Origin: Fimbriimonadaceae bacterium
GTDB taxonomy: Bacteria; Armatimonadota; Fimbriimonadia; Fimbriimonadales; Fimbriimonadaceae
NCBI GenBank assembly: GCA_024710805.1
Contig: JANJUB010000125.1
Coordinates: 1 to 59,419 of the forward strand
Direction: 5' to 3'
Length of the DNA stretch: 59,419 bases
Part shown: positions 52,198 to 54,284 of the stretch, piece by piece
Numbering within the stretch: position 1 is the first letter of the stretch
Layout: each line of letters opens with the position of its first letter
Translations under genes and position numbers: made by a program
Notes under the pieces: generated by a model
Database searches by the model: none
What the model was told of the DNA's origin: nothing
Seen by the model: the letters and a program-made list of their open reading frames with translations, nothing else

Positions 52198-52992
52198 CTA
52201 CCGGTTCAGACTCGCCGCTAGGTTCATTGGAGCTCGATCCACGGGTTGTCCCAGCCACCACTCCAACGACAGAGCTGCCTTCTCGACCACGATCTGACGG
52301 CCATCGATCGTGGGCAATCCGCGAAGCTGTGCATCACGCAACAGCTCGGTCGGGACGCGCCGATAAACGAGGTCCATCACCGTCGTCCCGCGCCGAATGA
52401 ACGTCCAGTCCACCGGTGGCTTCTCGCCGGCTCGCTTGCCCAGAGTCGTCGCGTTGACGATCAAACTGCACCCGGTCGGATTCGCGCTGGGCAACACCTC
52501 GATTTCGCCAAACGCCTTGAGGGTCGTTTGCAGCAGTCGAGATCGCATCCCGTTCCTATTCCAGACTCTCACCCGCCACCCTAAGTCCAGCAGGGCAACG
52601 GCCGCGACCCGGGCACCGGCTCCTGCTCCCATCACTAGCGCCGTTCCTGCTTCAAGGTGCTGGACAAGGTCTTGGATCGCCGGGACTTCATTGTTTTGTC
52701 CCCAAATGCCGTTCTCGAACTTGAGCACGCTGGCATGGCCCAACGCGTGACGAACCGTTGAGAAGCGATGAGCGAGCCTGGCCGCCGCCACTTTGTGGGG
52801 CGGCGCGATGGCCGCGCCGAGGTAGCCCGCCTCCTGCAACGCATGGACTGCAGCCTCGAACTCTTCTTCAGCGACCTCGACGACTTTAACTTCTCCGTCA
52901 ATGCCAAGGCCGCTCAGCCCCGCCCGCAACACCGCGGGGAGGAGCGAGTCCTCAAGCTGATCTCCGATCATCGCAAGCTTAACCGCATTCAT
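52198..52992 (-). CDS. Divergent shikimate dehydrogenase-like protein
   Basis: 264 residues. AroE fold is shown by VMGAGAGARVAAVALLDLGWRVRVWNRN (NADP Rossmann), MDLVYRRVPTELLRDA (D-x-V-Y-x-P-x-x-T) and GLPTIDGRQIVVEKAALSLEWW. Key substrate residues are altered: the S-x-S of the N-terminus is lost (MIGDQLEDSLLP), the catalytic K is kept in APPHKVAAA, the N-T-D-G aspartate is N-N-E-V, and the closing Q is E. It may act on another substrate, or be a weak AroE; hence no symbol. GATAAT ends seven bases before ATG 52992. Confidence 0.7.
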   Translation of the reverse strand: MNAVKLAMIGDQLEDSLLPAVLRAGLSGLGIDGEVKVVEVAEEEFEAAVHALQEAGYLGAAIAPPHKVAAARLAHRFSTVRHALGHASVLKFENGIWGQNNEVPAIQDLVQHLEAGTALVMGAGAGARVAAVALLDLGWRVRVWNRNGMRSRLLQTTLKAFGEIEVLPSANPTGCSLIVNATTLGKRAGEKPPVDWTFIRRGTTVMDLVYRRVPTELLRDAQLRGLPTIDGRQIVVEKAALSLEWWLGQPVDRAPMNLAASLNR

Positions 52993-53011: not shown

Positions 53012-53056
53012 ACAAACTAAGAAGGGCGCGTCGCCGATCAAGATCGTGACGCGCCC
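53012..53056 (-). terminator. Terminator of the candidate ncRNA
   Basis: GGGCGCGTC pairs with GACGCGCCC (9 bp) with an inner CGATC/GATCG helix, followed on the minus strand by TTCTTAGTTTG. Confidence 0.8.
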
Positions 53057-53353
53057 AATACGCGATTGCTCGCGCGAGCGGCTAGGCCGCACGAGCCTCG
53101 AACGGGGTCGGTGCAATCCGGAGACACACTTGGCTCTCCGGCGCTACTCTCACGGGACTCTGGTCCAAGGATCCCCGCGAGGTCGCGACCTCGTTCTAGC
53201 TCATTACCGGTTACCGGACTACTCAACCTCAGCCCGACCCTTACGGGTATCTTCGGCGTCTCCGAAGATTTCTACGGTAATAGATCCGTCTGAAGGGATT
53301 AACGTCTTCAGTCTTCGTTTCCGAAGCGGTGGTCCTCCACCACCGTCGTCTCT
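53012..53353 (-). ncRNA. Candidate structured non-coding RNA
   Basis: A ~340-base region between aroE and map with a good promoter, a terminator and no convincing reading frame. It is packed with local hairpins: GGTGGT/ACCACC, CTTCG-GAAA-CGAAG, CTGAAG/CTTCAG, ATCTTCGG/CCGAAGAT, ACCC-GTAA-GGGT, CGAGGTCGCGACCTCG, GGAC-CAGA-GTCC, CCGGAGA/TCTCCGG and GCGGC-CTA-GCCGC. It lacks the conserved core motifs I know for tmRNA, RNase P, SRP or 6S RNA. The function is unknown. The rest of the 52993-53534 gap (53389-53534) shows nothing I can name. Confidence 0.6.
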
Positions 53354-53359
53354 GTAGTT

Positions 53360-53388
53360 ATCATACGCGATCCATTGGCGCAATGCAA
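53360..53388 (-). promoter_or_regulatory. Promoter of the candidate ncRNA
   Basis: TTGCAT (53383-53388) and TATGAT (53360-53365), 17 bases apart, give near-consensus sigma-70 elements. Transcription should start near 53353. Confidence 0.7.
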
Positions 53389-53534
53389 CGGGAATTCAAG
53401 GAAGTTTTCCACAACCGAAAAAATGGGCTCGAACTGCGGTCGAGATTCGCCAGTGGGACAGCACTTCGACATCTCGCTACGACCCTCCCACAGAGTCTGT
53501 GCGACGACCCAAACCGTGCCGACCCGAGCCGAAG

Positions 53535-54284
53535 TTATTCTTTCGTAAGAATCTCGGCCCCATTGGGGGTGATGTGGATCGTGTGCTCGTAATGCGCAGC
53601 CAGTCGCCCGTCTGCCGTCACGATGGTCCACTCGTCATCCAACTGATTAACCTTCCACGTGCCCGCGTTGACCATCGGCTCGATGCACATTGTCATTCCG
53701 GCCAGCAACTTCATGCCTTTGCCGGGCTTGCCGTACATGGGAATGTTGTGGGGCTCGTCGTGAAGCTTCTCGCCGATACCGTGACCGACCAAGTCGCGAA
53801 CCACGTTGTAGCCGTTGCGCTCGACGTAAGTTTGAACCGCCGCTCCGATATCGCCGATCGTGTTCCCCGGCCGAGCCTTGGCGATCCCCTGATTGAGCGA
53901 CTCCCGCGTGACGTTCATCAGTCGTCGTGCCTCATCCGAGATGTCGCCGACCGCGTAGGTCCATGCACTGTCGGCGTGCCAGCCATTCTTCACAACGCCG
54001 AAGTCGAGCGTGATGATGTCCCCCTTCTCGAGAGGCGTCGAGTTCGGAATGCCGTGCACAACGACCTCATTCACCGAAATGCAGGTTGCCCGAGGGTAAC
54101 CCCGGTAGCCCAAGAAACTCGGCACCCCACCCTCGGCGCGAATCAACTCATGCGCGTACTCGTCGAGTTCCACCGGGGTGACACCCGGGGCGATCTTTTC
54201 CGAAACAAGCCGCAGCGTCTTGGCAACGATCCGGCCGGACTCCCGCATCAACTCCACTTGAGCTGCAGATTTGATCAACGGCAT
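53535..54284 (-). CDS. map: Methionine aminopeptidase type I
   Basis: 249 residues. Metal ligands and active-site residues: H in NEVVVHGIPN, D in TLDFGVVKNGWHADSAWT, H in LVGHGIGEKLHDEPHNIP, E in MCIEPMVNAG and E in AHYEHTIHIT. It removes the initiator Met from nascent proteins. It lies two bases after adk, as in many spc-region clusters. infA, rpmJ, rpsM and rpoA, which usually follow, are not here. Confidence 0.96.
   Translation of the reverse strand: MPLIKSAAQVELMRESGRIVAKTLRLVSEKIAPGVTPVELDEYAHELIRAEGGVPSFLGYRGYPRATCISVNEVVVHGIPNSTPLEKGDIITLDFGVVKNGWHADSAWTYAVGDISDEARRLMNVTRESLNQGIAKARPGNTIGDIGAAVQTYVERNGYNVVRDLVGHGIGEKLHDEPHNIPMYGKPGKGMKLLAGMTMCIEPMVNAGTWKVNQLDDEWTIVTADGRLAAHYEHTIHITPNGAEILTKE

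Follow-up and report, generated by a model that had tools for sequence, protein, structure and literature searches.

Two minus-strand genes, map (53535-54284) and aroE (52198-52992), are separated by 542 bases, which raises the question of whether this gap encodes an RNA of its own and, if so, of what kind. In the window, which is the whole stretch of 59,419 nucleotides that was analyzed, this gap contains a putative promoter, then approximately 340 bases of serial hairpins with a branched core, and then a GC-rich terminator stem, all on the minus strand. The structured noncoding RNA of about 340 nt was placed at 53019..53358, with its start set from the -10 box and its end from the terminator stem, and is supported by its fold and by homologues in 16 genomes. 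A 350-nt stretch was predicted to fold at -159 kcal/mol, compared with -126 +/- 5.8 in dinucleotide shuffles (z -5.7, none of 100 shuffles as good), and the 340-nt transcript gave a z of -5.9. For all 17 related or promoter-sharing RNAs that were folded, z was between -1.6 and -7.4. The earlier note on this DNA had described some 300 bases dense in hairpins with short, mutually overlapping reading frames, and both descriptions were borne out, the former by a fold far better than that of shuffles (z about -5.8). The 5' domain (53207..53347, minus strand) is a row of short hairpins, one of which (53290-53311, minus strand) carries the loop ACGUUAAUCCC, a pattern that recurs in other genera.

The putative promoter at 53360..53388 (minus strand) consists of TTGCAT, a 17-base spacer and TATGAT. 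When 15 copies were laid out, boxes with a 17-base spacer, usually TTGGNN-17-TATNNT and picked by eye, were present in 13. As such, the promoter proposed from this sequence recurs in homologues and is kept at 95% identity in a congener, but its -35 box is not near-consensus as had been claimed, matching at 3 of 6 positions, and a strict promoter scan does not report it. Likewise, the proposed terminator at 53019..53056 (minus strand) has a strong GC-rich stem, GGGCGCGUC...GACGCGCCC, with similar stems at the end of the homologues, many of them with better U tails; its own U tail (UUCUU) is poor and a strict scan is silent. Since strict scans miss both elements, their reality rests on comparison, from which we infer that the RNA gene is independently transcribed.

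The same gene lies at the same place in this congener (G001). The two are 93.5% identical in the RNA and 95% in the promoter stretch, but the upstream spacer reaches only 77% and the short spacer on the downstream side 76.5%. Thirteen substituted positions fall within predicted helices, where a standard pair was kept at 10 and broken at 3. Two of the 10 pair-keeping positions form a single compensatory double change, from U-A to C-G, in the second hairpin of the 5' domain, and a further 8 substitutions are in unpaired positions. These comparisons demonstrate purifying selection on the predicted promoter and RNA as one unit.

The RNA was then compared with known families. An Rfam scan of the whole window (4227 families, Rfam 15) gave nothing at gathering thresholds, and a permissive scan of the locus with E up to 10 returned only chance-level matches, with E above 7. 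Ten homologous loci did not match Rfam either. OLE, ROOL and GOLLD are included in Rfam, and none of their covariance models matched at the locus or at the ten homologous loci; 6S RNA and SRP RNA did not match at the locus in scans with the whole library. The earlier note had seen no tmRNA, RNase P, SRP or 6S signature here, in agreement with the empty scans of the locus, and had offered a lineage-divergent form of a known RNA as an alternative. The size of the RNA is within the range of RNase P RNA and tmRNA, and it has its own promoter. However, RNase P RNA (244 bits, contig C198) and tmRNA (170 bits, contig C67) are encoded elsewhere in the same genome, so the RNA is not a divergent form of either. 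6S RNA is one long bulged hairpin and SRP RNA has one SRP hairpin, architectures that misfit this RNA, although these two families were searched at the locus only. Moreover, most close relatives do not have the RNA. Taken together with the permissive scan, in which no Rfam match with E up to 10 was credible, these facts make a divergent housekeeping RNA barely conceivable, and the alternative is largely refuted.

To find homologues, as the earlier note had called for along with a covariation analysis and the Rfam scan that gave no significant match, a DNA search was carried out and located the conserved stretch in three further genera. A first covariance model found 15 carrier genomes in the class; a sixteenth match was not a homologue. 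A second model found the same set among 291 genomes of the phylum. The divergent member in G013 was first spotted through the palindrome upstream of the promoter, and a third model scored it at 54 bits, a score that is not independent because the alignment of this model contained the G013 member. In total, the family comprises 17 copies in 16 genomes and 6 genera of one bacterial family, which we infer to be Fimbriimonadaceae, with covariance-model matches at E from 1e-10 to 1e-27. The core model found no member outside this family among the 291 genomes of the phylum. Weak model matches (L051, L071, L072, L073 and L135-L139) were inspected and rejected, as they fell within coding regions or repeats. 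When 85,000 named genomes were scanned with a sequence pattern, one true member, in Chthonomonas sp. UBA1950, and one chance match were recovered, but the P3 loop of this pattern was one N too long and the outcome is no guide to distribution outside the phylum. The carriers represent 6 of approximately 32 genera of the family surveyed, a patchy occurrence that counts against an essential role. One genome (G012) has two divergent copies (L058 and L066), both with the second module described below. In another (G076, L061), the RNA is apparently cut off inside this module and followed by apparent coding sequence; this copy is possibly decaying.

The RNA has a conserved core of 95 nt (53101..53195, minus strand), captured by covariance models R1-R3. 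In this core, P1 has 8 pairs, P2 has 7 pairs and the loop CUUGGACC, and P3 has 7 pairs and the loop GCCAAG, and the strands at the junction are CRACC, AGNGUAGCG and GCA. The window RNA has the features that define the new family, namely the three-way junction core and the CUUGG and CCAAG loops. Among 16 distinct sequences, 86% of the cells pair, and 17 of the 27 pairs have changes on both sides. Double-change cells numbered 57, compared with 19 +/- 4 in shuffles (none of 500 as good), and the signal collapsed when partners were slid by one base. Several positions of P2 show four or five pair types. This covariation demonstrates a predicted three-way junction in which compensatory changes have preserved the helices P1, P2 and P3. 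There was no sign of a conserved peptide, as substitutions follow base pairs and distant homologues share structure but not frames. The suggestion of a new RNA class is supported by these results, namely the lack of an Rfam match, the presence in relatives with strong covariation and the absence of any sign of a conserved peptide, and we consider it almost certain that the RNA represents a real new family.

The P2 loop (53162..53169, minus strand) and the loop of the P3 hairpin (53118..53141, minus strand) are near-invariant and mutually complementary, CUUGG being invariant in all 16 aligned sequences. Pairing between CUUGG and CCAAG is possible in 97.5% of the cells, with only one change, from G-C to G-U. 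Because the bases are near-invariant, covariation lends the pairing almost no support. In pseudoknot-free predictions, the P2 and P3 loops are partly or wholly open in most members. Considering that two near-invariant loops are complementary, a loop-loop kiss between CUUGG of P2 and CCAAG of P3 is likely. Such a kiss would lock the P2 and P3 hairpins side by side.

Some relatives are longer than the window RNA. The Fimbriimonas-type copies and those of G012 and G013 have a second three-way junction 3' of the core, which, folded in isolation, formed in nearly all of the 8 members tested; its helices vary, the junction is common to them, and its strands CUCC, AGNGUAG and GC echo those of the core. 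These comparisons demonstrate that the longer relatives have a second predicted three-way junction sharing the junction consensus of the core. The window RNA and that of the congener do not have this module; 3' of the core they have a short hairpin region and then the terminator. The last hairpin of the second module exposes the loop UGUACA, or GUGCAC in one member (one of the G012 copies), and the switch between these palindromic loops is a single event. Since both are self-complementary, dimers are possible, and the longer relatives might dimerize through this loop, a proposal that we hold only tentatively.

The earlier note had raised the possibility that the RNA keeps its place downstream of the spc-region genes, which was found to be true within the genus, from the comparison with the congener, but not in other genera, where the neighborhoods are different. 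The neighbors vary by genus: the RNA adjoins map and aroE in the window and, in other genera, LeuRS together with an aldo-keto reductase, a region encoding PhoU, a kinase and a CAP-domain protein, or further genes. The map-aroE position is therefore confined to the genus. This setting bears on whether the RNA is a cis-acting element, either the 3' tail of the map mRNA or a leader or attenuator of aroE, as its co-directional position between the two genes in the window genome and the congener would allow. However, in other genera the neighbors are unrelated and some are opposite in direction, and the RNA has its own promoter and terminator. Since it occurs in different neighborhoods between genera, it is neither the leader nor the trailer of one gene, and the comparison demonstrates that the predicted RNA gene is independent of its neighbors. 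Synteny thus refutes a cis-acting role, which we regard as highly improbable, unless the genus of the window has co-opted the RNA.

Patchy occurrence and the two copies in one genome could instead point to a mobile element or prophage. However, the neighbors are housekeeping genes, and some neighbor families are common to carriers within genera and also between g12, g14, g18 and g19, which argues for inheritance with loss. Moreover, searches of 50,697 phage records, 72,556 plasmid records and viral contigs gave no match; a looser pattern gave at least 120 chance matches in viral contigs, and none of the 80 loci checked was confirmed by the model. An origin in a mobile element is therefore very improbable. 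The shared neighbor families suggest one inherited locus that underwent rearrangement and repeated loss. In the genus Fimbriimonas, only two species have the RNA at the LeuRS-adjacent site.

Upstream of the promoter, most copies have the palindrome TTATCCACA-n6-TGTGGAAAA or a variant of it, some 15-20 bases from the -35 box. The window genome has a recognizable right half only, GTTGTGGAAAAC (53404..53415, minus strand), and its left half is degenerate; most relatives have the full palindrome, equally far from the -35 box. It was the best match within 16 kb at 12 of 16 loci, and when one mismatch was allowed in 113 genomes, seven carriers of the RNA had the palindrome only at the RNA promoter. 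The palindrome looks like paired DnaA boxes, but this identity gained no support, as no cluster of such boxes was found around dnaA in five genomes. At approximately 1500 in L109 (G077:C5), three TTATCCACA-type boxes lie directly upstream of an ftsZ-like gene, which suggests that whatever binds the palindrome might have a part in cell division as well. On the minus strand of L115 (G011:C1), from approximately 1500 onward, a palindrome GTTTTCCACA...TGTGGAAAAC and promoter-like boxes precede a stretch rich in hairpins, after which comes a sequence called tRNA-His with anticodon atg by ARAGORN.

The palindrome also stands in front of another set of structured RNAs, arranged in tandem, in G066 and G079, and similar sequences are found in G067. 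These array RNAs did not match the core model or Rfam, and we treated them as a separate set sharing the upstream palindrome. The arrays (L119, at 655-1880 of G066:C6; L129 on G067:C19; L130 and L131 in G079) are near rplI and a MlaD-domain gene and contain RNAs of 210-280 bases, each of them preceded by a promoter and a TTATCCACA-type palindrome; those of G066 start with AUGUCUC at the 5' end and fold with z from -3.9 to -5.6.

A stand-alone gene, a dedicated operator and tandem arrays are typical of regulatory RNAs. The main rival reading is a trans-acting RNA that base-pairs with mRNAs through exposed conserved single strands (such as CUUGGACC, AGNGUAGCG or the AAUCCC loop) and uses its hairpins for stability; the stand-alone gene, the operator-like palindrome and the tandem arrays of three relatives, in which shorter structured RNAs share this palindrome, are all in line with it. 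However, the conserved bases are inside a covarying junction and two complementary loops, which points to tertiary structure, and 340-520 nt with two structured domains exceeds the needs of a seed region. We consider base pairing with mRNAs unlikely, though it has to be taken seriously.

Another rival is a decoy for the RNA-binding protein CsrA. CsrB and RsmZ soak up CsrA with many GGA hairpins, and the RNA resembles them in its several hundred bases of serial hairpins, some with GGA in their loops, in its size, and in that CsrA is encoded in its genome, as in 35 of 35 relatives tested. In contrast to CsrB and RsmZ, GGA is not enriched, with 9 in the window RNA and 9.0 expected from shuffles, and apical loops hold only 2 of them (0-5 across the family). 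In addition, conservation lies in the junction core rather than in GGA loops, and CsrA is also encoded in genomes without the RNA. A CsrA decoy is thus very unlikely.

With its cellular role left aside, we have good confidence that this is a new stand-alone, trans-acting RNA with a locked three-way junction. It would be noncoding, architecturally folded and the type of a new clade-restricted family. A role as a scaffold or in a particle, rather than as a base-pairing regulator, has slightly less than an even chance in our judgment; the RNA might act as a rigid scaffold in an RNA-protein or RNA-only particle, and its synthesis might be switched on by a regulator bound to the upstream palindrome. 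A more ambitious reading is doubtful: an ornate RNA class of repeated three-way-junction modules with the consensus GC-nCC-hairpin-AGnGUAG-hairpin-GC, which would be locked by the kiss, dimerized via the palindromic loop and governed by a dedicated operator serving only the RNA in several genomes, and which would form, with the tandem arrays that share its palindrome, a single, rapidly evolving RNA system of Fimbriimonadaceae. To our knowledge, few large structured bacterial RNAs are without an assigned function, and any further family that shows clear covariation offers a chance of a new RNA activity. The repeated junction module, like the palindrome dedicated to the RNA promoter, is a concrete handle, and because the carriers very probably include one cultured species with a complete genome (G062), expression, probing and structure work are feasible.

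No matching family or paper was found in Rfam or in the open-access literature. The purine riboswitch forms a three-way junction in which the P2 and P3 loops kiss, and the seven-pair P2 and P3, the complementary loops and the adjoining P1 stem of the core resemble it, a likeness that serves as a lead only. Unlike that riboswitch, the RNA has no Rfam match, has other junction bases, controls no downstream gene and contains the junction within a longer independent transcript. It is a new family among orphan structured bacterial RNAs of the OLE, ROOL and GOLLD kind and a member of none of these. Like them, it is a stand-alone, long, multi-domain and structured RNA with an unassigned role, a restricted occurrence and probable loop-loop contacts (PMC12286853). 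OLE and GOLLD loops switch between palindromes (PMC12286853), and the new RNA may, by analogy and as the sequences of its longer relatives suggest, form homo-oligomers via a palindromic loop as well. It differs from OLE, ROOL and GOLLD in that it matches no profile, is smaller (340-520 nt), is found on Armatimonadota chromosomes and is built of two like three-way junctions.
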